A stretch of 36,550 nt of DNA from a virus, in IMG/VR virus record IMGVR_UViG_3300009788_000078, positions 1 through 36,550 of that record, one strand, 5' to 3'. Every line of letters starts with the position of its first letter. The stretch's first letter is position 1. Below, one piece after another: positions 1-36,550 of this stretch. The position numbers were made by a program, and so were the translations under genes. The notes under the pieces are model-generated. The model saw only the letters and a list, made by a program, of their open reading frames with translations. It did no database searches and was not told the origin of the DNA.

Positions 1-123
1 GCCACAAGTAGCATTTGCTTGTTATGCCCTCCAAAACCCGACGTTGATGAGGACCGATTAGAGATCATTGAGAAAGGCATGTTGGCAATAGTTTCGATGC
101 TAGATGAGGATGCAAGAAAGAAA
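1..123. repeat. Terminal redundancy, copy 1: circular join of the element
   Basis: The first 123 bases are identical to bases 36428-36550. The repeat lies inside the integrase reading frame and keeps that frame intact across the join. It is therefore read as an assembly overlap of a circular molecule, not as a biological direct repeat. The implied circle is 36,427 bp. Longer reads across the join would settle this. Confidence 0.93.
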
Positions 124-790: not shown

Positions 791-1294
791 AATTCATTCA
801 TCTCCTTGGATACGCCTTCCCTATGTTCGCGAGTGGAACCCTCACAGAACGCAACGAAACACTAGTTTGGTCGGTGCGCGACGCAGTAGAAATGCCTACA
901 CCGTTATGGTGTGGCGTCGCACAGCGACTTTTGAACGGTCGAAATGTGCATTTCAAGGGGGGAAAAACTTGAAGGCAAAGACGACGCAAGGACTTTGGGT
1001 TATGTCTGTAATGCGATAACTGTCCTGTCTACAAGTAAGGGATGTTCAAGCGAGAACTGAAAACAGGCTAAACTAGTAAACCTGTGCGAGTGTCACCATC
1101 TCGCAATTCTTGTTTCTTGATCCCTTACGAAAGGGGTGGAGTCGGCCCGTTCGAGAGTCCCAAAAGAAATTCAGCATAAGAAAGACCATCGGGAACGATA
1201 CGGGCCACATGACTCCTTTGTGCAAATCTGATTGGATTTGCCATTCCAGTTTGCGGTAGATCCTGCAGGACCTACGTTTAGAGGCCGTCGTCGC
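791..1294 (-). ncRNA. Putative structured non-coding RNA or cis-acting region in the left operon
   Basis: This is the only untranslated stretch of about 500 bases in an operon whose other genes touch or overlap. Nearly all of 874-1275 can be folded. There is a hairpin at 874-922 (outer stem GTGC/GACGC with GCGTC/GCAC, inner ACACC-GTTAT-GGTGT). There is a 9-bp stem 1035-1043 with 1120-1128 enclosing ACAGG/CCTGT and TGCGAG/CTCGCA hairpins. There is a 13-bp stem with one 4-base bulge, 1138-1150 with 1200-1216, enclosing ATCG-GGAA-CGAT. Further elements are GCAAATC/GATTTGC (1222-1241) and a near-perfect 20-base palindrome at 1256-1275. Strand is assigned from operon direction. No tRNA, RNase P or known riboswitch signature was recognised. 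A replication origin is the main alternative. Confidence 0.55.
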
Positions 1295-3177: not shown

Positions 3178-3345
3178 CTACTCGCCGCCCTCCTGATTTT
3201 CTGATAATTTGGCTTTGAGCCATTTTATGAAATGATGCAGATTATATTGGACGTGTTTTGCCAAATCCTCCCGTATCTCTTCCGAGCATTCTTCCTCATT
3301 GGGACAACCCTTACAGTTCTCTTTGCAAGGTTCAGAATCAACCAT
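3178..3345 (-). CDS. Tiny Cys-rich protein, 55 aa (paralogue A)
   Basis: The ATG at 3345 directly follows the TAG of the upstream gene, with AAGGGGTTGG as ribosome binding region. The first 20 residues hold PCKENCKGCPNEEEC, a four-Cys motif almost identical to that in the 34-aa gene at 3939-4043. At DNA level, 3287-3345 and 3985-4043 are about 86% identical. The rest is a helical, His-containing tail (HVQYNLHHFIKWLKAK) absent from the paralogue. A small metal-binding or disulphide module is likely. No function is known. Confidence 0.68.
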   Translation of the reverse strand: MVDSEPCKENCKGCPNEEECSEEIREDLAKHVQYNLHHFIKWLKAKLSENQEGGE

Positions 3346-3537
3346 CTATTTACCAACCCCTTTCTTTATCTCGTTGACACAATCATCCTTCAAATGGGGC
3401 CAAGGTTGAGGGTATAGGATTGGATCGAAACTTAGTTCTCTTGTCCATTTTTGATAATGAAACTCGGTCCACATCAGACTGTCTTGTCTATGTTCCCGTC
3501 GTTGGTTTGTGATATGGGGTTTAATGATCACATTCAT
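3346..3537 (-). CDS. Small hypothetical protein, 63 aa
   Basis: The ATG at 3537 overlaps the upstream stop as ATGA. The product starts MNVIIKPHITNQRREHRQ, has a Trp-rich centre and ends KKGVGK, where the Gly-Val-Gly tail is the ribosome binding site of the next gene. There is no Cys pair, signal or membrane segment. No family is recognised. Confidence 0.6.
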   Translation of the reverse strand: MNVIIKPHITNQRREHRQDSLMWTEFHYQKWTRELSFDPILYPQPWPHLKDDCVNEIKKGVGK

Positions 3538-3938: not shown

Positions 3939-4043
3939 CTACTCCTTACCTCCTAAGTGTTTAAAGGCGAAAGTCCAGAATCTACATTCTTCCTCGTTGG
4001 GACAATCCTTACAGTTCTCTTTGCAGGGTTTAGATTCGCTCAT
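3939..4043 (-). CDS. Tiny Cys-rich protein, 34 aa (paralogue B)
   Basis: The ATG at 4043 overlaps the upstream stop as ATGA. Almost half of the 34-residue product is the motif PCKENCKDCPNEEEC, shared with the 55-aa protein at 3178-3345. It then ends in FWTFAFKHLGGKE, whose last codons hold the GGAGG of the next gene. The DNA similarity of 3985-4043 to 3287-3345 shows a recent duplication of the 5' end, with unrelated 3' ends joined to it. Confidence 0.62.
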   Translation of the reverse strand: MSESKPCKENCKDCPNEEECRFWTFAFKHLGGKE

Positions 4044-4300
4044 CTACTCGCCGCCTCCCACTGCATGGTAGATGAACGGCGATTTCTTACCAAATTCAAG
4101 TTCGCGTTTGATACGCTCATCAGACATTCTTTCAAACACACCACAAGAATGATCATGCCAAATGTGGTCGTCGGCAGGCTTTCTGCATTTATCGCAACGA
4201 TGTCACAGATTGCACGAAACGCGCGTCTATATTTGCATATCAAACAACAGTCAAAATCAGGAACGGAATGCATATACAACGGATTATGTTTTCCACTCAC
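4040..4300 (-). CDS. Hypothetical protein, 86 aa, GTG start
   Basis: GTG at 4300 overlaps the upstream stop (GTGA) and is preceded by AAGGGGGTAAC. The N-terminal part carries CCLIC and a further AICD Cys. A hydrophobic stretch (TFGMIILVVCLKECLM) could be a weak membrane helix or a buried strand. The tail EAASR encodes the GGCGGCGAG ribosome binding region of the 34-aa gene. No family is recognised. Confidence 0.58.
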   Translation of the reverse strand: MSGKHNPLYMHSVPDFDCCLICKYRRAFRAICDIVAINAESLPTTTFGMIILVVCLKECLMSVSNANLNLVRNRRSSTMQWEAASR

Positions 4301-9344: not shown

Positions 9345-9403
9345 ATTATTTCATTTCCTTTAATTTCTGCATTGATTACACAATGATTGTAATTGGTGGG
9401 CAT
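9341..9403 (-). CDS. Possible 20-codon coupling ORF
   Basis: The ATG at 9403 overlaps the HerA-like stop (TGATG) and the frame MPTNYNHCVINAEIKGNEII ends exactly on the next gene's start (ATGA). GGTGG lies about 10 bases before. It may be a translated micro-gene or simply a device that carries ribosomes from the ATPase gene to the 87-aa gene. Confidence 0.35.
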   Translation of the reverse strand: MPTNYNHCVINAEIKGNEII

Positions 9404-11034
9404 CAATGAACCACCTTTGTTTTCAGGAGTCCCTTTTCTCTGGCCTCTGTTGTGGAGATTTTGAACCGATAATACGAGCGGTCAGTTTTCTTATGCTCAA
9501 CATATCTCCATCTTGCAAGTTCAAGCATCGCTTTTCTTAGAGTGGCACTATTCGGAACAGGCCATCCATGAGAAAGGAATTCTTTTGTGATTTCGTTATT
9601 TCGCAACCAAGTACCAACTGGGAATACGCCATCTGCATAAAGAATAACGACCTTACCCAGTATATCCTCATCGTTCAATGTCAGGGGAGGTTGCGTGATG
9701 ATGATGGTCAAGGCGGGTTGCGTGGTTTCAACCGATATCGATTCAGGGACCTTGATTTCCTCTACATTCTGAGGTTCAGGAGGATTTTCTTGTGCCTTGT
9801 CTGATGGTCCCACTATACCTGCGGAAGGATTCTTACTATCCTTTTTCTTGGGTTTCGTCTTTTCATCCAGTTTAACCATTCTTGCATCCAGTTCAGTTAC
9901 TCTCTTTTCGAGTTCTGATATTTCCTTTTTCGAATCTCGTTTCAATTTTTCATATTCCTTAGATAGATCTGTGTACTTGGCCTTCCATGCCATATCATCA
10001 TCTCCTGGTGATTTACCTTCCAATCGTGCAACACTCTTAGCGGTCCGCTTTCCTGATGCCACGTCGATTGCAGTTGCCTCATCGATCCATATGGGCCAGA
10101 TGTAGGTCTTTTTCGCCCACTCATAACTTACAACAAGAAATTCCCCAAGTCCCAGTGTTTGGATTGCCTCAGTATTCACTCCCAGACTCTTTGCCCTGGG
10201 GATCTGTTTTACTGTCCTCTCGGCCTCGTTCAACTCGCCTTGCCTTCCAAGTATCCAGAACTGCATCTGTTTCAGGACATCTTTCGAGATGCCTGTCACG
10301 GTCTGGTCTGCAAGCCACACCCAATTCCTACTTGCCCTCCCCTCACGAATGAATGTCACAATATCCCGACTGCAACCAGAGGTCTGCCCCTGTGGGATGA
10401 ACCGATGCGCCTCATCGATGATTACAGTGATGTCAGTCAAGTTGTCTTGGATGTAATTGATCACGCTTCCTACCACAAGTTGCTGCATCTGAATATCCAT
10501 CTTACTGATATCCAGGACGCTGATACCATCATTCAACTCCAGTCTATCCGACCATTGGAATTTTGAATGTTCCCTCACTAATCGTTTTATGAAATATCTG
10601 AGTATTTTCAAATTGTTCTTGATGTAGCCGCTCCTTTCGGTCTTCATCTCTCTTTCGATGACTTCCAACATATCGTCCCATGATTCGGATTCAGCAACAG
10701 TGTCAAGCAGAGTACCAAATTGTTGTTTGACTGTGAATCTCTCGGTGGTTTCAATAGAGTCTTTGATGACGATTGGCTCCATTTGTTGCTTGATGTAAAG
10801 GGGAATATCCGCATCCATACCACCATAGTCCCTTTTTCTTTTGGCATCAATGATAAGGACCGTACCCTTGGCCTCCTGGATGAGTCGTTGCATCGCCTTG
10901 CTTTTTCCGGTCCCTGTCGTTCCAGCAATGAATGTGTGATTAGGTTCGATTGTTACTGGTTTGACAATCCACTCTTTTTCTTTCTCTAGGTCCTTTGGTC
11001 GGATCTCAAATCCAAGTACTATTTCATTCATCAT
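9403..11034 (-). CDS. HerA/FtsK-superfamily P-loop ATPase (DNA translocase)
   Basis: The 543-residue product has Walker A GTTGTGKS at about 38-45, Walker B ITVIIDEAH at about 202-210 and the HerA-like sensor region (FIREGRASRNWVWLADQT). A coiled coil (about 330-385), a Pro-rich linker and a C-terminal winged-helix-like domain (WPVPNSATLRKAMLELARWRYVEH) follow. Such ATPases pump DNA in packaging, conjugation or end resection. No NurA-type nuclease is adjacent. ATG at 11034 with GGAGATCAT upstream is preferred; TTG at 11076, overlapping the upstream stop as TTGA, is the alternative. It is a candidate genome-packaging or transfer motor. Confidence 0.85.
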   Translation of the reverse strand: MMNEIVLGFEIRPKDLEKEKEWIVKPVTIEPNHTFIAGTTGTGKSKAMQRLIQEAKGTVLIIDAKRKRDYGGMDADIPLYIKQQMEPIVIKDSIETTERFTVKQQFGTLLDTVAESESWDDMLEVIEREMKTERSGYIKNNLKILRYFIKRLVREHSKFQWSDRLELNDGISVLDISKMDIQMQQLVVGSVINYIQDNLTDITVIIDEAHRFIPQGQTSGCSRDIVTFIREGRASRNWVWLADQTVTGISKDVLKQMQFWILGRQGELNEAERTVKQIPRAKSLGVNTEAIQTLGLGEFLVVSYEWAKKTYIWPIWIDEATAIDVASGKRTAKSVARLEGKSPGDDDMAWKAKYTDLSKEYEKLKRDSKKEISELEKRVTELDARMVKLDEKTKPKKKDSKNPSAGIVGPSDKAQENPPEPQNVEEIKVPESISVETTQPALTIIITQPPLTLNDEDILGKVVILYADGVFPVGTWLRNNEITKEFLSHGWPVPNSATLRKAMLELARWRYVEHKKTDRSYYRFKISTTEAREKGLLKTKVVH

Positions 11035-11072
11035 ATGATCTCCAATTTCATCTTGTTTTTGCGTTGCAGAAT

Positions 11073-11465
11073 TCAATAGGAATACACCACCTTACCATTG
11101 GGAAAAGTCCGTCCGCAATACTGGCACCATCGACCCAGAGAGAAACGTCGCGGGTGAGAACCATATCCGCGTTTGACCCCTGATGATAATGTCACAACAT
11201 TATTCCCAGTGTCCTCAAAAGTACAGTAAGGGCAGCGCGGTCGTGGATTGTCATTCCAGTGACGAGTCTGTTTGTAGATCACATTCGCACTTGTAATGAG
11301 AGGGAGTTTTTCGCGTGTGACCAAACTTAGTACAGGTCGCGCCATTTTCTTTCGACCGGTGATTTCCCATTTCCCCTCTATCAACGAATAGATTAGTTCG
11401 GTATCTATGCGTATGAAAATGTCGTGTCCGTCGGGGATTTGCTTTGTGGATTCGTATAACTGCAT
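11073..11465 (-). CDS. Zinc-ribbon protein, 130 aa
   Basis: The first 70 residues are a beta-rich domain (DIFIRIDTELIYSLIEGKWEITGRKKMARPVLSLV). The second half has CPYC and CQYC about 30 residues apart around a Thr/Ser/Gly-rich loop, forming one zinc ribbon. The ATG at 11465 follows the TAA of the 56-aa gene with GGAGG about 8 bases upstream. It is directly upstream of the HerA-like ATPase, so it may be a DNA-contacting partner. No family is recognised. Confidence 0.68.
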   Translation of the reverse strand: MQLYESTKQIPDGHDIFIRIDTELIYSLIEGKWEITGRKKMARPVLSLVTREKLPLITSANVIYKQTRHWNDNPRPRCPYCTFEDTGNNVVTLSSGVKRGYGSHPRRFSLGRWCQYCGRTFPNGKVVYSY

Positions 11466-12175: not shown

Positions 12176-12916
12176 CTAGACCGCCTCCTCTAGTGTTAGT
12201 TGAATCGGTTCGATATGTTTCGATTCGTAATCTTGTTGGCGTTCTATTGCCTTGCGTAGTGCAAGAGAGAATTCATACGGGATCAATGAACGCAGCATAG
12301 GGGTTGTGAGTTCGCGTGGCATCATACATTCTTTTTCTCTCTTGATGCCTTGCGTTCCTGTTTTAGATCCTCTAGGTGCTTTCTCCCAAGTCACAGGTTT
12401 GGGCCATTCCATCTCCGGCAATCGGCCCCATAGGTACGTAGGTTTGTAATGGCGTTCCCCCCAAGCAGCCCAGAATGTTTCAATAGTAAAATCGCCCCTT
12501 CCAAGAATGTCTTTCATTACTCGGCGCATCATCGCCCTTGGATTTTCCAAGACCCAGAATTTAGGTTCTATCTGGTCCTTCAACCAGAGGATCCTTCGAA
12601 CTAATTCGATTGCGACCTTACAGGCTTTGCTTTTCGGTGTGTGATTTCCATCATCGGATTTAGTCCAATGCGTACTAACTGCACCAACCGAGAATGGTGT
12701 GCAGGGTGGTGAGATTAACATTACATCAGGACGGAACGGTAGATCATCAGGTTCTAATTCCATGATGTCGATAATAGTTGTACGAGAATCGTCTGCAATT
12801 TCCTTTATCACAAAGTAAGGTTCAATGTCGTATCGGCAAACCTCCCAATCCTCACTAAGAAATGCTTGCGAAAAACTCCCAAGTCCGGAGAATAGATCTA
12901 CACAGACCTTTGTCAA
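12176..12916 (-). CDS. C5-cytosine DNA methyltransferase (copy 2), short phage type
   Basis: The 246-residue product has motif I VDLFSGLGSFSQAF, motif IV as the standard SPPC (Cys72) and motif VI LENP at about 123-126. It ends with the SLIPYEFSLAL block shared with copy 1 (1957-2604). It would methylate cytosine C5 in DNA. The target recognition part is short, as in viral orphan enzymes. TTG at 12916 overlaps the upstream stop as TTGA with GGAGG 9 bases before. Having two diverged copies suggests two recognition sites or one redundant copy. Confidence 0.9.
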   Translation of the reverse strand: MTKVCVDLFSGLGSFSQAFLSEDWEVCRYDIEPYFVIKEIADDSRTTIIDIMELEPDDLPFRPDVMLISPPCTPFSVGAVSTHWTKSDDGNHTPKSKACKVAIELVRRILWLKDQIEPKFWVLENPRAMMRRVMKDILGRGDFTIETFWAAWGERHYKPTYLWGRLPEMEWPKPVTWEKAPRGSKTGTQGIKREKECMMPRELTTPMLRSLIPYEFSLALRKAIERQQDYESKHIEPIQLTLEEAV

Positions 12917-18215: not shown

Positions 18216-18232
18216 TTTTCATACAGTGAAAA
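18216..18232. promoter_or_regulatory. Operator 1, TTTTCA-N5-TGAAAA palindrome
   Basis: The sequence TTTTCATACAGTGAAAA has perfect 6-base inverted arms. It lies directly upstream of the TATA box of the leftward operon, where a bound regulator could either recruit TBP/TFB or block TFB. The second copy (18280-18296) differs only in one spacer base. Confidence 0.8.
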
Positions 18233-18258
18233 GCATAGTGTATATGCATTATAGGAAC

Positions 18259-18266
18259 TTAAAATA
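18259..18266 (+). promoter_or_regulatory. TATA box of the winged-helix regulator gene
   Basis: TTAAAATA on the plus strand. The predicted start at about 18289 falls inside operator 2 and leaves a leader of only about 11 bases before the TTG at 18300. Binding at operator 2 should therefore repress the regulator's own gene. Confidence 0.6.
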
Positions 18267-18279
18267 AACAAAACTGTCC

Positions 18280-18296
18280 TTTTCATACTGTGAAAA
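18280..18296. promoter_or_regulatory. Operator 2, TTTTCA-N5-TGAAAA palindrome
   Basis: TTTTCATACTGTGAAAA, with the same perfect arms as operator 1 and 64 bases from it. It covers the predicted transcription start of the winged-helix gene and ends 3 bases before its start codon, a classic autorepression position. Confidence 0.8.
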
Positions 18297-18299
18297 CCA

Positions 18300-18605
18300 T
18301 TGGATAGAAATCGACTATGGTGGGCGGAGATAAAAGGAACTATCGAGATATTACTCCGTTTACTTGACGGGCCAGAATACACATCAAAATTCTACAAATC
18401 CGATATTCATCATGAGGGTGTCGCTAGCGCACAAACAGTGAGTCGAATAGTCGGAGTGCTTGTCAAACTCGGCCTCATCGAACGTAACACAGAACAGATG
18501 CGCCCAAGGGTCTATCTCCATCTAACAGGGATAGGGATTGATGTGGCCCACAACCTCAAGGCGATAGAGGATATCCTTAAGGTTCAATCATCAAGTAGCC
18601 CGTAG
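18300..18605 (+). CDS. Winged-helix transcriptional regulator, 101 aa
   Basis: The product (MDRNRLWWAEIKGTIEILLRLLDGPEYTSKFYKSDIHHEGVAS...) has helix-turn-helix AQTVSRIVGVLVKLGLIER followed by a wing RPRVYLHLTGIG, as in MarR/ArsR-like archaeal regulators. It is transcribed divergently from the left operon. The two TTTTCA-N5-TGAAAA sites in the shared 120-base promoter region are its likely operators. TTG at 18300 has no Shine-Dalgarno sequence and the leader would be about 11 bases, so it is probably near-leaderless. It overlaps the convergent gene 18584-18802 by 22 bases. It is the best candidate for the lysogeny or copy-number switch. Confidence 0.8.
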   Translation: MDRNRLWWAEIKGTIEILLRLLDGPEYTSKFYKSDIHHEGVASAQTVSRIVGVLVKLGLIERNTEQMRPRVYLHLTGIGIDVAHNLKAIEDILKVQSSSSP

Positions 18606-18940: not shown

Positions 18941-19843
18941 GTGAGAAAAGTAGTTTTTATGCTTGTTCTTTTAGTGGCGATGCTATCACTAACATCTGTA
19001 CAGGTGAGTGCACATACCCTCCAATGGGGCGTAATGCCTGAGAGCCAATTTGAGTTCACAGCACATGGGGAACGAGAGGACATTGGAATTGTGGACCTTG
19101 ACTATTCCCTCACCATCACCGCCCTGGAGTCGATCCCCGCTACGTTCGAATACGCGAATGATTTTCCAAGGACCACCGTATCTCTAAAGGACTTGGATGA
19201 TAATTCAAATCTGGACATGGGAAATGACATATCCACACTTTGCTTTGGATCATACTCTGCCATGCCATTGGGTGACTGGGATTATCTTTCACAGGTCATA
19301 GAGGATTATTCCGTATACCATGATGTTGACTGGTTCAGGGAAATGACGACCTTCGAGAATACGACACACTGGGGGTTTTCAGAGCATTCCGAACATTCCA
19401 GCGCCAGAATATACAAGACAACGATACATCTCAAAGAGAATGGCATCATGGTATATTTCAGTGGCTCCCATTGGAGTTACACAGAACAAATCATGATGGA
19501 GGATGTGACAATCAAACAGATAGTCGATTCAACGACCCCCACCACCACAACGACTACCACGACCTCGACAACCACTACATCAACTACAACCTCCACTACG
19601 ACCACTGATACCGCCGGATCCGGCACGACCTTGGCAATATCCCCTGAACTGGGTTTCGTCCTCATCCTGTTCATTGGGATAATAGGCATTGCAGCATTCG
19701 TGAAACGCGGGAAAACCCCCTCACCAGGTGAAACCCCACTACCGATTAGTCCCGATGTAAAGGTTCTGATAGTTTGTCCTTACTGTGGCGCTAGGAACGA
19801 ACAGGGGATTCTCAAGTGCCAGACCTGTCAAGCGGATATCTAA
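18941..19843 (+). CDS. Secreted, membrane-anchored protein with Thr stalk and cytosolic zinc ribbon, 300 aa
   Basis: GTG at 18941 has GGGAGA about 6 bases upstream. There is a signal peptide at residues 1-25 (VVFMLVLLVAMLSLTSVQVSA) and an ectodomain of about 170 residues with a sequon. A Thr/Ser-only stalk lies at about 195-220, and a membrane helix (PELGFVLILFIGIIGIAAFVKR) follows. After a Pro-rich linker comes a zinc ribbon (CPYCGARNEQGILKCQTC) that would lie in the cytosol. This order is typical of Asgard archaeal surface proteins. A TATA-like AAAAATAAAT at about 18867-18876 fits as promoter. It may have been acquired from the host, or serve as a surface receptor or marker. Confidence 0.78.
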   Translation: MRKVVFMLVLLVAMLSLTSVQVSAHTLQWGVMPESQFEFTAHGEREDIGIVDLDYSLTITALESIPATFEYANDFPRTTVSLKDLDDNSNLDMGNDISTLCFGSYSAMPLGDWDYLSQVIEDYSVYHDVDWFREMTTFENTTHWGFSEHSEHSSARIYKTTIHLKENGIMVYFSGSHWSYTEQIMMEDVTIKQIVDSTTPTTTTTTTTSTTTTSTTTSTTTTDTAGSGTTLAISPELGFVLILFIGIIGIAAFVKRGKTPSPGETPLPISPDVKVLIVCPYCGARNEQGILKCQTCQADI

Positions 19844-19875
19844 AAAGAAAGAATGGAAGTCAAAATTAGACTTCC
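19840..19875 (-). terminator. Hairpin terminator with conserved T-rich tail, copy 1
   Basis: The arms GGAAGTC (19855-19861) and GACTTCC (19869-19875) form a 7-bp stem. On the minus strand it is followed by a CTTTCTTTTT tail, so it would stop the surface operon ending at 19896. It also overlaps the stop of the plus gene ending at 19843. It is 32/36 identical to 34120-34155. A second small hairpin GAGGA-CAG-TCCTC lies beside it. Confidence 0.65.
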
Positions 19876-19895
19876 GAGGACAGTCCTCTCCGAAA

Positions 19896-20672
19896 CTATT
19901 CACTAACAAATCTACTATACGGCAGTGTCAAGTTATTCCTTATCCTGTTGAATTCGCGTGTCTTTTTCCTTGAGGATATTGTTGCTGTCCCGTAGATGGC
20001 ACAGAATGCCAAGAACATGATGTTTCCGATAGGAGCAAGTCCTTCTACAATAGTCAATAGATCGTCAACAGGATCAGGTTCGACGACTCCACCACAGACC
20101 CATTCCCACGAATGCCAGCGCAACTCCCAGACCTGTGATATAACCAATGTGATTTCCAGAGATGCACTCCTTTCGGACAGATTCAACCTGCGCGATATCT
20201 GAAAGTCCATCCTGTTGAATACCAGAATATCATCATCAACATTTCCGTCAACGAATACGTGTCCACTGGTCACATTCAGATGACCGTCGATACCAAAGTA
20301 ATCACCCTCCGATACATTATCATTGGACCATCCGCTCCTATTATACGATGAACCAAATATCTTCAGAGTAAGGGTTTCATTCTCTTGGAAATAATCATCC
20401 GGCATCACTGCTTCCACTGCCACGAACCTGATATGGAACGCGATCAGGGCCGCCCACTCCAATCTATTGTAGTCATAATATGGTTCATATCCCTCGAATT
20501 TACCCACTGGTAAATCAATATAATCATTTATTTCACCGTAGGCACCGAGTGTATATTGCAGTTCAATTCCTTGCACACACCGAGTTGTTATGTCCACATC
20601 ATTCTGTGCCTTAACTGGAACTGCAAGCAATAGCAGGATTCCTAACACTACCAGAACAAGTCCAGACTTCAA
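19896..20672 (-). CDS. Membrane-anchored ectodomain protein, 258 aa, TTG start
   Basis: TTG at 20672 (GGAG 8 bases upstream) puts a signal peptide at the very start (LKSGLVLVVLGILLLLAVPVKAQ). An in-frame upstream start would add an unlikely charged extension. The ectodomain of about 195 residues is beta-rich with sequons (NET, NRS, NVS, NVT, NLS). A C-terminal membrane helix (IGNIMFLAFCAIYGTATI) and a basic cytosolic tail follow. It is the last gene of the second surface operon. A surface or virion glycoprotein is likely. Confidence 0.72.
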   Translation of the reverse strand: MKSGLVLVVLGILLLLAVPVKAQNDVDITTRCVQGIELQYTLGAYGEINDYIDLPVGKFEGYEPYYDYNRLEWAALIAFHIRFVAVEAVMPDDYFQENETLTLKIFGSSYNRSGWSNDNVSEGDYFGIDGHLNVTSGHVFVDGNVDDDILVFNRMDFQISRRLNLSERSASLEITLVISQVWELRWHSWEWVCGGVVEPDPVDDLLTIVEGLAPIGNIMFLAFCAIYGTATISSRKKTREFNRIRNNLTLPYSRFVSE

Positions 20673-20673
20673 C

Positions 20674-20829
20674 TCAATCGCTCCGTTCTTTCTCTTTTCG
20701 CAACTCATCAATCTGTTTTCGAAGGTCCTTTTTCTGTGACTCTAGATCATGAATAATCCGATTTATCCGGCCTATGGCACCCTCGCGTTCTGCAATACGG
20801 ATATCCAACCTTGTGAATTCTTTGCCCAT
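20674..20829 (-). CDS. Small coiled-coil protein, 51 aa
   Basis: The ATG at 20829 lies 6 bases after the upstream stop. The product MGKEFTRLDIRIAEREGAIG... continues as a regular heptad coiled coil (RIIHDLESQKKDLRKQIDELRKEKERSD). The last codons include GGAG for the next gene. It has no signal, so it is cytosolic or interior, and may bridge the membrane proteins' inner tails. Confidence 0.66.
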   Translation of the reverse strand: MGKEFTRLDIRIAEREGAIGRINRIIHDLESQKKDLRKQIDELRKEKERSD

Positions 20830-20834
20830 CGCTG

Positions 20835-22079
20835 TTACCTCATGAACTTCAACACAAAGTAAAGTATCAGCATGACCACAAGTATCCCACCGATCAACAT
20901 CAGAACGAATCCAGGGTCGTTCATTATATCAGACCAGTATTCACTCACACCCGCCCACCATTCATCCACATCGGACCAGAATGTCACCTGCGGTTTGTAG
21001 AAAGTGTTATCCTCGGAGGTTTCTCCCTGTTGTTCTCCAGTAACAACGAGTTTAGTCATCTCAATGGTCGCAGCCACCTTGATCAGTATCTTATATTGCA
21101 CCTTGACGTTTCGAACAGCACAAGAGTCCCAGTGGTTGCCAAATCCAGTAACATGATACTGCGCACCTGCGCCTAACGTACAGGAGGTTTCGATATCCAC
21201 ACTTGAGGGAACATTCAACAAGGCACTATCAGCAGTGAATTCCACAGAATAGGCATCGTTGCTTGTGTCGTGATAGTACATATTGAGTGTGGTACCTGGT
21301 GTAATGACGTTTTGTAAAACATGATTATAGTTCTCAGTTGCACTTTCATCAACAAGTCCAAAGGATCTATCATAGACAATGGCATCGAGAACACCTGCCC
21401 AACCTTCCGTTATGGTGTAGGTTGTGGTCACATTGTTGGCATCTGTAGTGCTATTGTAGACACCTACAGGACTCCAAGGAGCGATAACGAACGATTGTCT
21501 TCCAGCGATATCGAGAACTCCATCCTCGAAATAATAACCCCAATCACCCCATAGGCCAAATGGTATTGAGATCGCAGGGTCCTTGTAGTAGACATCCGCA
21601 CTTGTCTTGTAAGTGATATCAAGTCCATAGTACATGAGGTTGTACTGGTAGACGGTTGTTTCTCCACCCACGGTATAGGATTTCTCCACCATTTTCGCAA
21701 TGACTGGATCGTCCTCATCACCCAATTTAACGTAGGTATCGCCAATCTTTTGTAGATTGTAAGGATTGGATGTTTCAACACTCAATCCAGGCATGGAGAT
21801 ATCGTCGGTTCTAAGACCGTCTTCTGTTTCCAGGGCCAGAATGATACCGTTGACATCATAAGGGGTCCAGTTGTAATCCTCGAAATCACCATCGATATCC
21901 CAATCAGCGATACTATGCTGTCCCATGGGCGTTCGTAGTTTATCATTGGCATCAAGTAGAACTACACCCGATACGATCTCCCCTCCACCTGGATAGGGAA
22001 CACTTGACAGTGAAAGGGCCGCACCCAGCATGATTAAAATGAACGCGACCGCACCTATTTCTTTTGTAATTTTGACCAT
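20835..22079 (-). CDS. Two-anchor membrane ectodomain protein, 414 aa
   Basis: An N-terminal signal-anchor (EIGAVAFILIMLGAALSLSSV, about 7-27) is followed by about 350 residues of beta-rich ectodomain with sequons (NYT-like and NVT sites). A C-terminal membrane helix (PGFVLMLIGGILVVMLILYFVLKF) ends the protein with almost no cytosolic tail. The ATG at 22079 overlaps the upstream stop (TAATG), with GGAGAAATC upstream. It is likely a spike-like surface protein of the particle or envelope. No family is recognised. Confidence 0.72.
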   Translation of the reverse strand: MVKITKEIGAVAFILIMLGAALSLSSVPYPGGGEIVSGVVLLDANDKLRTPMGQHSIADWDIDGDFEDYNWTPYDVNGIILALETEDGLRTDDISMPGLSVETSNPYNLQKIGDTYVKLGDEDDPVIAKMVEKSYTVGGETTVYQYNLMYYGLDITYKTSADVYYKDPAISIPFGLWGDWGYYFEDGVLDIAGRQSFVIAPWSPVGVYNSTTDANNVTTTYTITEGWAGVLDAIVYDRSFGLVDESATENYNHVLQNVITPGTTLNMYYHDTSNDAYSVEFTADSALLNVPSSVDIETSCTLGAGAQYHVTGFGNHWDSCAVRNVKVQYKILIKVAATIEMTKLVVTGEQQGETSEDNTFYKPQVTFWSDVDEWWAGVSEYWSDIMNDPGFVLMLIGGILVVMLILYFVLKFMR

Positions 22080-22810
22080 TATAGATTTCTCCGGATTATT
22101 TTTGAAAGGACGTACACGACCGCTACCATGACGATGAGTGCTACAATGGCAGGTACCGCGTTGATGAGTGATTGAATCACCTGTTGCCTCTGCGATGCAA
22201 AATTAACGGTGGTGTGAGCCACCATTGGAGCAGTGGCATTCTTTGTGACGTGGTAGGTATACATGAATAGGGAATTTCCCACCGTCAGGATGATAATAAG
22301 AAAGATTGGGGCAAGTGCCTGTGTCTGTGCAAAGTACCTGAAATAATGATAACCAACAAAGGGAATGTCACTTGCAAGGATTACCTGTAATGGGTCCACA
22401 CCTTGAAGAAAGAAATCAAATACCTCGTAGACTGCAATGTCGAACAACAATGTTTCGGACACTGGTGCAAGCATGATCAGCCACACCGATTCAGAGGAGG
22501 TATACGAAAAGGCAGGTTCTATGAACGCCACCAGGAGGTTTATACCCACCGTGAAAGCCCCCGATATGAAACCGAGGAGTGCTGCGAAAGTGTCATCTTT
22601 AAGTGTGACACGTTTATTCAAGCGGAATCCCAGAACAGCACAGAATGATAATGAGGCCGCCCAGATGAGAGTATATCCGGACCACCAATAAAAATTCAAT
22701 GTAGGGTCGTTCAAACCCCAGACTGCTGAAAGCAAAGAGAACAGGATAAACATGGCTCCGATGAGTCCTGCATATCCTGGTCCTCGGTACCTAGTTCCTA
22801 TTCTAGGCAC
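22079..22810 (-). CDS. CPBP-type intramembrane protease-like protein
   Basis: Six to seven membrane helices with the CPBP (CAAX protease/Abi) signature in order: a Glu in APVSETLLFD (the first motif is usually EExxxR, here a single Glu and no Arg), FVGYH (FxxxH) and HTTVNF (HxxxN). These residues would bind zinc inside the membrane and cleave membrane-anchored substrates. Its place among membrane-anchored ectodomain genes suggests it processes them. The start is uncertain: GTG at 22810 removes most of the overlap with the upstream gene but lacks a good Shine-Dalgarno sequence; TTG at 22870 is in frame. Confidence 0.72.
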   Translation of the reverse strand: MPRIGTRYRGPGYAGLIGAMFILFSLLSAVWGLNDPTLNFYWWSGYTLIWAASLSFCAVLGFRLNKRVTLKDDTFAALLGFISGAFTVGINLLVAFIEPAFSYTSSESVWLIMLAPVSETLLFDIAVYEVFDFFLQGVDPLQVILASDIPFVGYHYFRYFAQTQALAPIFLIIILTVGNSLFMYTYHVTKNATAPMVAHTTVNFASQRQQVIQSLINAVPAIVALIVMVAVVYVLSKIIRRNL

Positions 22811-22814
22811 CTTC

Positions 22815-23426
22815 CTATGGTGTGGTGAATCCCAAATCGCCTGATATCGATAATGCGACAGTGGTATCAACGTATGTCAAAGACAAGTGCTTTGACAACA
22901 CGAGAGGATCAGTGGTCTTGACATCTCCATCCCCGTCGGTTTCAGTTGCGATCAACGAGTAAGAGAAATCCAACTCGAATGTTGCATCATAGGCCGATAG
23001 GCACATGGATGATAGGTCATACGTGAACGTCCACGTTCCTGCAGTGTCTGTTGCGATTTCTGATTCCACAGTTCCGGTTACATCGACAACGCGCTCGGTT
23101 TCACCTAGCCACGTATGTCTTTGTCCAGTAACGCCTCCAGTGAGTCCCACAGAAACAGTTGATCCATCAGCAACACCCGCTACGTTATATGATACCGTAA
23201 CGACGGCCGTGGTCACTGTCTTTCCTGCAGCATCTTGAAGTGCAAAACTGAACAATGGTATTTCCGAACCTCGCGTGGATGTCTTATAGACTTCATTATC
23301 ATCTGCATCGTAGAGAATGATGGTCATTCCGGTCGTCTTTGGCATTATCTGAGGTACTACAAAAATCACAAGACCGCCCACAACAATGGCGGCAATTACG
23401 ATTCCGATTATTGCATTTCTATTCAC
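22815..23426 (-). CDS. Membrane-anchored beta-domain protein, 203 aa
   Basis: GTG at 23426 has CAGGAGGC 7 bases upstream. An N-terminal anchor (IIGIVIAAIVVGGLVIFVVPQIM) is followed by one Val/Thr-rich beta-sandwich ectodomain (TVTTAVVTVSYNVAGVADGSTVSVGLTGGVTG...). There is no C-terminal anchor. It is placed directly after a hairpin with a T-rich tail, so its expression is probably lower than that of the gene at 23475-24587. A minor surface or pilin-like protein is plausible. Confidence 0.72.
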   Translation of the reverse strand: MNRNAIIGIVIAAIVVGGLVIFVVPQIMPKTTGMTIILYDADDNEVYKTSTRGSEIPLFSFALQDAAGKTVTTAVVTVSYNVAGVADGSTVSVGLTGGVTGQRHTWLGETERVVDVTGTVESEIATDTAGTWTFTYDLSSMCLSAYDATFELDFSYSLIATETDGDGDVKTTDPLVLSKHLSLTYVDTTVALSISGDLGFTTP

Positions 23427-24587: not shown

Positions 24588-24933
24588 TTTTTTTCAATCT
24601 CCCGTACGATATATCCGATTCAATGTGATCAAAGAAAGAGGTTGTAATGATATTGCTGGATACATCATACGCTTTTCACTATGTCATGTAATACAAATCA
24701 CTATCTTATTAGTTTTACCACTGAACCGAGTTGTAAATCCAATCGTCTAACTATCACCAAAAGGGCGGAAAACACGTATCCTGATGCATCTGTAAAGCCC
24801 TCACCTTTCAACCCCCACCCCTTTTTCAGGTACTACGTCCCTTTTTTGCAACCGTATCCCATTTCCCCTTGGTACCAGTGGTTGTTTTTTTTAAAATTCC
24901 CGCTTGGTACCATATGCCTGTTCTAAGTGGGAT
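24588..24933. other. 346-base intergenic region: promoter for the surface operon, possible origin
   Basis: No gene is supported here. It separates two minus-strand operons. Visible features are a TATA-like GATATATCC at 24608-24616, a partial regulator site TTTTCACT at 24673-24680, and a G-rich minus strand around 24800-24832 (runs GGGG-T-GGGGG, GG, GGG) that could form a quadruplex. The 10-base palindrome-containing repeat CTTGGTACCA occurs twice, at 24868-24877 and 24903-24912. It contains the next-best origin candidate after 791-1294. Confidence 0.4.
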
Positions 24934-34093: not shown

Positions 34094-34119
34094 TCGAAAG
34101 GTCATGTATTCGTGGATGT

Positions 34120-34155
34120 CTAAAAAGAAAGGATGGAAGTCAATTTTTGACTTCC
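34120..34155 (-). terminator. Hairpin terminator with conserved T-rich tail, copy 2
   Basis: GGAAGTC (34135-34141) and GACTTCC (34149-34155) form a 7-bp stem directly after the stop of the minus gene ending at 34155, followed on that strand by CCTTTCTTTTTAG. It also lies downstream of the plus gene ending at 34093, so it can serve both directions. It is 32/36 identical to 19840-19875. Confidence 0.68.
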
Positions 34156-34601
34156 TAGAATACGAACGCGATATGTAATAGTTCACCTGGCTCGAAATTA
34201 CCACTAGGGACCATCAATCGCCTGTTGCTGGTGATCGCCACGCGCCAGACCACAGGGAGTTTCTGTTCCACATTCCTCCAGGCAAGGACGTTGACGGTCT
34301 TGCCCTGTAACATGTCCATTCCCCAGTATTCCCAATCGGGCAAGGGAATGTAGGATTGATAATATGCGCCATGCTTGTGCGAGCCTACCTTCAGGACACA
34401 ACCAGGATACACGGCTATCGGTTTCAAGTCCCTATCCGCGCACCACTGCAACTGCACACCAGAACCACCACATTCAGGACAGATCATATCAGGGAGCACC
34501 ATACCGCGATAGGCCCATTCAGGGACTGCGGATTCTAAGGGTAGTCCGTTCTCATTTTCGTGGGAATACCACCCACAATAATGATGTATCGTAATTTTCA
34601 T
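34155..34601 (-). CDS. Hypothetical protein with zinc motif, 148 aa
   Basis: Early CGWYSHE and then CPECGGSG plus CADRD and a later Cys form one likely zinc site. The rest is beta-rich (PIAVYPGCVLKVGSHKHGAYYQSYIPLPDWEYWG and VWRVAITSNRRLMVPSGNFEPGELLHIAFVF). The ATG at 34601 overlaps the upstream stop as ATGA. With the next gene it forms a two-gene operon under the promoter at 35034-35086. No family is recognised. Confidence 0.66.
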   Translation of the reverse strand: MKITIHHYCGWYSHENENGLPLESAVPEWAYRGMVLPDMICPECGGSGVQLQWCADRDLKPIAVYPGCVLKVGSHKHGAYYQSYIPLPDWEYWGMDMLQGKTVNVLAWRNVEQKLPVVWRVAITSNRRLMVPSGNFEPGELLHIAFVF

Positions 34602-35248: not shown

Positions 35249-36550
35249 GTGCCGAGATTAGACGGTATGGGACTACCTACTAAGTATAAGAAATTCTTTG
35301 ATGAGAAACTATCGAACTTGAGTCACTCATACAAGAAAAATTTCATTTCGTTATTACACAGACTTCCACCTCCTGACGAACTTACTACAGAATGGGTGAT
35401 AGAGTTCATCCGGCGACCTGGTAGGACGGGCGGTGCGCTTTCTAACGATACGATCTGCCACGACCTCTTACGTATCCAGATGGTTTCAGAGTACCTTGGA
35501 GAGGACGTGACGAAAGGGATCACACGCCCAAAGAAACGGAAATTGACAAGAAAGGATATTCCGGAAGAGGATGTGGCCCTGCATCTTGTCAGGAATGCAC
35601 CTAATGAGATGACAAGAGCATACATTCACATCTTTACAGAGATGGGGCCCCGTGCGGACGAGGGGCTTAGTATCCAGATCGAGGATATGAAACTGGGAAA
35701 GACGAACATGAGGGTCATGGATGCCATACTGGCAAACAAGAGAGTATCTGGAAGGATGTGGCGTGTTGAACTCACAAGGAGTAAGACGTTCACGCGCCCT
35801 CTGTGGTTATACCATAGCACACCATCAATCCTTGCATGGTTGAAATCGCATCCTGTAAAATCAGGCCCTTTGTTTGTCACTCTTAGGAGAGTGCGTGTGA
35901 ACGGTCGATTGGTGCATAAAGAACTTGGTTATGGACAAATACGACAATATGTTGTCAGGGCGTGGGTGAACTCAGGATTTAGAGATCCGGATGAAACACG
36001 GCGATTAAAATGCTTTATTCGATTTCGCGAACAGACCGATATGGGCACACCTCTTGATAAAATCCCAAAGAACAACGTGGAAAGAAAACTGTTCAAACAG
36101 TTCGTGGCTAACGACTATCCGTTGCGCGATCTACAAAGGGCATTGGACGAACAGATGTCAAGACCTCCGATTCCTGGTGGTCGCCCGATTCATTGTCTTC
36201 GACACCTTGTTGGTACTAGATTTGCCGGTGAGAACATGGCAGAGGAAAAGATGAACAAGGCTCTGGGTTGGTCTGACGATAGCAGGTCACGAAAAAGATA
36301 CATTCACCTGATCGATTCGGACATCGAGGATGAGATGTACAGACGTGCAGGGTTGTTGGACCCAAAAGATGAGAAAAAAATAGACATAGAGGCATGGATC
36401 TGTCCGGTGTGTTCGAACCTGAACCCTGCCACAAGTAGCATTTGCTTGTTATGCCCTCCAAAACCCGACGTTGATGAGGACCGATTAGAGATCATTGAGA
36501 AAGGCATGTTGGCAATAGTTTCGATGCTAGATGAGGATGCAAGAAAGAAA
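35249..36550 (+). CDS. int: Tyrosine recombinase (integrase), 5' part; continues at 1-168
   Basis: The full product is 448 residues (434 here, 14 more at 124-168). GTG at 35249 is preferred to ATG at 35267 because AGGAG lies 11 bases before the GTG. Catalytic residues are Arg135 (GPRADEG), Lys179, His315-x-x-Arg318 (HCLRH), Trp341 in place of the third His, and Tyr351 (KRYIHL). The GWS...YIHL block is the usual archaeal form. A C-terminal zinc ribbon (Cys385, Cys388, Cys399, Cys402) follows, also typical. It would integrate the circle at a chromosomal att site. No attP could be identified by eye. Confidence 0.93.
   Translation, partial: MPRLDGMGLPTKYKKFFDEKLSNLSHSYKKNFISLLHRLPPPDELTTEWVIEFIRRPGRTGGALSNDTICHDLLRIQMVSEYLGEDVTKGITRPKKRKLTRKDIPEEDVALHLVRNAPNEMTRAYIHIFTEMGPRADEGLSIQIEDMKLGKTNMRVMDAILANKRVSGRMWRVELTRSKTFTRPLWLYHSTPSILAWLKSHPVKSGPLFVTLRRVRVNGRLVHKELGYGQIRQYVVRAWVNSGFRDPDETRRLKCFIRFREQTDMGTPLDKIPKNNVERKLFKQFVANDYPLRDLQRALDEQMSRPPIPGGRPIHCLRHLVGTRFAGENMAEEKMNKALGWSDDSRSRKRYIHLIDSDIEDEMYRRAGLLDPKDEKKIDIEAWICPVCSNLNPATSSICLLCPPKPDVDEDRLEIIEKGMLAIVSMLDEDARKK
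36428..36550. repeat. Terminal redundancy, copy 2
   Basis: Identical to bases 1-123. It lies inside the integrase gene, and joining the two copies gives one uninterrupted 448-codon frame. It marks the point where the circular molecule was opened. Confidence 0.93.

Follow-up and report, generated by a model that had tools for sequence, protein, structure and literature searches.

The minus strand at positions 857-1296 of the window, by which we mean the whole stretch of 36,550 nt that was analyzed, is, as judged from its predicted folding, a credible but unproven candidate for a new structured RNA. The region is non-coding, folds with unusual stability, shows a preference for the minus strand, and belongs to no known class. 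It displays generic features of virus-encoded structured RNAs, namely folding beyond that given by its composition, the absence of coding sequence, and strand specificity. An initial annotation had proposed a candidate structured RNA here, and folding energy, strand asymmetry, and the lack of a protein frame support this proposal. If real, the RNA is a minus-strand candidate with defined boundaries, open to direct probing.

The first and last 123 bases of the window (1-123 and 36428-36550) are identical and an integrase gene (35249 to 168, plus strand) spans the joint, so that the genome of the element is circular or terminally redundant and 36,427 bp long. The minus strand carries nearly all remaining genes in tight succession, most of them with Shine-Dalgarno sites. 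Among phage records, the integrase, which contains a C-terminal zinc-ribbon, matched only a Methanomicrobiales virus and an Archaeoglobus virus. In the case of the HerA/FtsK-like ATPase (9403-11076, 557 aa), a 62% relative is present in one IMG/VR contig (L002), and weaker relatives were found in metagenome-assembled genomes (MAGs) of Thermoplasmatota, Thermoproteota, and Asgard archaea, comprising contig L026 (35%) and four that are weaker still. The integrase and ATPase matches bear out the earlier assignment of the element to archaea; judged by its genes, the element is virus-like and archaeal, and very few of its relatives have been sampled.

Several other features of this genome were recorded. 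Two C5-cytosine methyltransferase-like genes (1957-2604 and 12176-12916) and an MT-A70 adenine methyltransferase gene are found together in one 36-kb element, and a gene at 22079-22870 encodes a CAAX-protease (Rce1-like) membrane protein (Pfam E 2e-5). A direct repeat of 62 bp (87% identical, 3287-3348 and 3985-4046) is located close to a row of small genes. The hairpin GGAAGTCAAAATTAGACTTCC / GGAAGTCAATTTTTGACTTCC is present in two 45-nt copies (87%) at 19834-19878 and 34114-34158; the first, located where genes 18941-19843 and 19896-20711 converge, is probably a shared terminator. At 18220-18300, the promoter that serves the minus-strand genes is surrounded by two facing TTTTCACAGTATGAAAA-like palindromes, which are likely repressor operators.

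The candidate RNA occupies most of a 504-nt gap (791-1294) without a convincing open reading frame (ORF) inside the packed minus-strand operon. The largest ORF within the gap has at most 92 aa, and the codon scores of the gap ORFs range from -0.19 to 0.15 bits/codon, compared to a mean of 0.17 for the known genes and 0.27 for the adjacent gene. This poor codon usage ruled out one or more protein-coding genes in the gap, and a protein frame through the region, named beforehand as evidence against a structured RNA, was found neither among the ORFs nor by their codon scores. The ORF of the upstream methyltransferase is open from position 2173, but its start is likely near 1960, and its phage relatives align from ORF residue 62-73. 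Its stop codon (1297-1295) abuts the closing helix P1 of the folded domain. As no TATA-like motif was detected on either strand within 600-1700, co-transcription of the gap with the minus-strand operon is likely. The initial annotation described the operon as having no other gaps, which is roughly right, except that 17.9-18.9 kb and 24588-24933 also lack a convincing gene. The latter stretch (~350 nt, minus strand) did not fold unusually in the scans made.

Table 1. Neighbor genes and predicted structural elements of the candidate RNA (positions in the window).
Feature	Position	Strand	Sequence or description	Support
Upstream neighbor gene	1295-1960	minus	MT-A70-type adenine methyltransferase	Pfam PF05063, E 4e-19
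Downstream neighbor gene	431-790	minus	119-aa protein	Shine-Dalgarno AAGGAG at 803-798
Main domain	973-1296 (324 nt)	minus	five arms closed by P1	z -5.81
Helix P1	1296-1291/978-973 + 1289-1284/985-980	minus		pair probability 0.87-0.93 in five flanking contexts
Arm A	1256-1275	minus	8-bp hairpin GTAGGTCC-TGCA-GGATCTAC	pair probability 0.99
Arm B	1222-1254	minus	two alternative hairpins, one GCAAATC-6-GATTTGC	pair probability ~0.5 each
Arm C	1138-1216	minus	long bulged stem GGAGTC/GACTCC, GGCCCGT/ACGGGCC, TCG/CGA, TCCCGA/TTGGGA	pair probability 0.96-1.0
Arm D	1035-1128	minus	GTAAGGGA/TCCCTTAC stem closing hairpins 1086-1104 + 1063-1085	pair probability 0.84-0.99
Arm D apical loop	1070-1077	minus	ACUAGUUU in 9-nt loop	candidate pseudoknot partner of 861-868
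Arm E	989-1026	minus	hairpin AGGAC/GTCCT + GTTAT/ATAAC	pair probability ~0.82
Hairpin G	870-928	minus	separate, downstream of main domain	pair probability 0.93-0.99 for main helices
3' tail	861-868	minus	AAACUAGU, directly after hairpin G	candidate partner of arm D loop

Folding of the segment 870-1280 gave z-scores of -4.15 for the plus and -5.27 for the minus strand, and none of 100 shuffles folded as well on either strand. The main domain 973-1296 had a z-score of -5.81 on the minus strand, where no shuffle was as good, versus -3.84 on the plus strand, and for 857-1296 on the minus strand a z-score of -5.2 was calculated, again with no shuffle as good. The dense folding noted earlier for 870-1280 is thus present, but these limits are slightly short, as P1 reaches 1296 and the downstream hairpin and tail reach 857. 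Both stems that had been named are found, the 9-bp stem 1035-1043/1120-1128 closing two hairpins and the bulged stem 1138-1216 with 6+7+3(+6) bp.

Calibration against the rest of the genome sets limits to this evidence. The best of 177 minus-strand windows of 410 nt genome-wide was 1026-1435 with a z-score of -6.6 (mean -0.5, sd 1.5), and the next four, with z-scores from -4.4 to -5.6, were situated in coding DNA. A 200-nt minus-strand scan gave a like picture, with one window inside a plain ORF at -4.3. Since coding windows reach a z-score of -5.6, the score of the region is extreme for this genome but not unique, and folding energy alone sets it apart from coding sequence only imperfectly; stable folding by itself is no proof of a functional RNA. 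High-probability long-range helices occurred in 26 of 60 shuffles and in 31 of 65 other windows, and neither in its long-range helices nor in its counts of high-probability pairs does the region leave the range spanned by these two sets. Because shuffles often have such long-range helices, P1 is not exceptional and its strength was withdrawn as evidence.

The structure model was derived from predicted folding of the minus strand, which corresponds to the operon sense, and consists of a five-arm domain followed by a separate hairpin (Table 1). The pair probabilities of P1, arms A, C, D, and E, and hairpin G hardly shifted when between 440 and 900 nt were folded. The minus strand is favored by the G-U pairs in arms A and D, which turn into A-C on the plus strand. 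The loop sequence 1070-1077 and the tail 861-868 can form 8 Watson-Crick pairs with a duplex energy of -8.5 kcal/mol, and in the predicted fold an 8-bp loop-tail pseudoknot between them is possible. As the arm D loop contains the palindrome ACUAGU, loop-loop dimerization is also thinkable. The arm B hairpin listed in Table 1 has a second copy at 1319-1338, GCGAATC-6-GATTCGC, in which one base pair is compensated; this copy is located in the last codons of the methyltransferase gene. In shuffle tests that were both chosen after the sequence had been inspected, a hairpin loop with such an 8-mer complement was found in 2 of 120 shuffles, and the arm B repeat (37-nt match, 27 identities) was equaled in none of 300.

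In agreement with the earlier statement that no known class was recognizable, the Rfam search proposed as a check gave no family match at the gathering score or at E values up to 5. In particular, there was no covariance-model match to group I or group II introns, RNase P, SRP RNA, tmRNA, or Rfam riboswitches, and blastn of the region against phages and plasmids retrieved no homologue. A covariance model of arms C and D (R1) had no match in the loci examined or in 327 archaeal genomes, 80 from the Thermoplasmatota class and 247 from the phylum Halobacteriota; as no positive control exists for this model, the result is weak evidence of absence. Exact matches to the stem pattern in IMG/VR were attributed to chance, as they showed no R1 match and had no gene in common with the element. 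With its nearest relatives the element has only the ATPase in common, or the ATPase plus one more gene (8163-8513 in L002), and the folded RNA is absent from every ATPase relative in the DNA available. Gaps of L002 with low z-scores turned out to be short ORFs or single hairpins. No relative was found for the other proteins of the element. Missing homologues say little, since no close relatives of the element have been sampled. An inserted mobile repeat was rejected, as the element contains no second copy of the region.

The ATPase relative L026, a contig of a Thermoplasmatota MAG (G617:C103), has an orphan folded RNA of its own at 2557-2725 on the minus strand, with a z-score of -5.2. This RNA is closed by the 11-bp stem GCCTCCCGCCG/CGGCGGGAGGC and contains a candidate pseudoknot, TTTAGGA/TCCTAAA, recognized by eye. 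Rfam returned no match for it, 80 genomes of its class yielded no homologue, and BLAST fragments in two genomes were judged to be chance. Like the 973-1296 RNA, it is encoded on the same strand as the related ATPase and some kilobases downstream of it. In contrast, it shows no sequence or covariance-model match with the 973-1296 RNA, has other arms, is GC-rich, and is followed by its own ribbon-helix-helix-like gene (assigned by eye). A second orphan RNA on the contig of a related ATPase suggests that such archaeal elements may carry more of them, too diverged or too rarely sampled for Rfam.

Our preferred reading, held tentatively and with slightly less than even confidence, is an intercistronic structured RNA that belongs to no known class and, once freed from the operon transcript, probably functions as a stable RNA, and probably in trans. 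According to this model, the minus strand would be transcribed across the region as part of the viral operon, with the five-arm domain beginning at the methyltransferase stop codon and hairpin G and the short tail coming after. The RNA would either leave the polycistronic transcript or be protected as part of it, acting as a stable RNA, and pairing of the arm D loop with the 3' tail may compact it. That it represents a new archaeal viral RNA class with five arms, a pseudoknot, a length of ~440 nt, release from the operon, and possibly self-association via ACUAGU in the 9-nt loop, comparable in kind to the ornate RNAs of phages, appears quite unlikely to us.

The opposite assumption, that the intergenic stretch contains no functional RNA and folds by chance or because of decayed repeats or genes, is rather unlikely. 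The folding z-scores of this genome are heavy-tailed, with coding windows down to -5.6, the searches made gave no homologue, and part of arm B resembles a diverged copy of the 3' end of the methyltransferase gene, all of which would fit such an origin. On the other hand, the best window of the genome falls here, in a gap of the kind that a densely packed viral genome should tend to shed, and the region shows strand asymmetry and several helices with probabilities of ~1.0 regardless of the flanks. Unlikely, too, is a cis-acting leader or intercistronic element that tunes the translation or stability of the small genes 431-790, 297-434, and 143-304 relative to the methyltransferase genes. The main domain stops 170 nt short of the next gene, although the region as such lies directly between two minus-strand genes, from the methyltransferase stop (1295) to the start at 790, which has a Shine-Dalgarno sequence at 803-798. 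An AGGAG-ATG-like string follows each of the hairpin copies (1222-1241 and 1319-1338), but these Shine-Dalgarno-like strings either fall inside the methyltransferase frame or lead only into ORFs whose codon scores are poor (0.02-0.04 bits/codon).

A function at the DNA level, with the inverted repeats acting as duplex or cruciform DNA in a replication origin, a recombination site (attP), or a packaging site, is improbable and the least likely of these readings. The region has no iterons, no AT-rich stretch (GC 0.49 versus 0.45 for the genome), and no skew turning point, and the G-U pairs in arms A and D together with the better minus-strand score argue for RNA. Points in favor of a DNA element are the end of the integrase gene (168), ~0.7 kb away, and the dense inverted repeats, which fold on both strands. 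An attP or tRNA-derived integration site was rejected, as the region contains no match resembling a tRNA T-arm and the whole element no tRNA.

Among known viral RNAs, the packaging RNA (pRNA) of the phi29 type is a small structured RNA with loop-loop contacts. The candidate RNA differs from it in having no Rfam match and in being more than twice as long; moreover, the ATPase of the element is HerA/FtsK-like, and a pRNA-dependent motor would be putative at most.

Large structured RNAs have been described from bacterial phages; in a small sample of the literature we found no report of a comparable class for archaeal viruses. ROOL and GOLLD are phage-encoded RNAs with elaborate folds and unknown function that often occur near tRNA islands and form multimers via kissing loops and other contacts (PMC12286853). 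The initial annotation likened the region to these large ornate phage RNAs, which holds true for folding density only; none of the GOLLD/ROOL-defining features tested was found. The candidate RNA measures ~440 nt, in contrast to about 660 or over 800 nt, and belongs to an element with an archaeal host rather than to bacterial phages or prophages. GOLLD and ROOL often lie near a tRNA island, whereas the element studied here is devoid of tRNA genes, and unlike GOLLD, ROOL, and OLE the candidate has neither an Rfam covariance-model match nor a family of homologues. What it has in common with ROOL and GOLLD is that both are virus-encoded and non-coding and adopt a dense multi-arm fold, which in the RNA described here may include a candidate pseudoknot or kissing loop.
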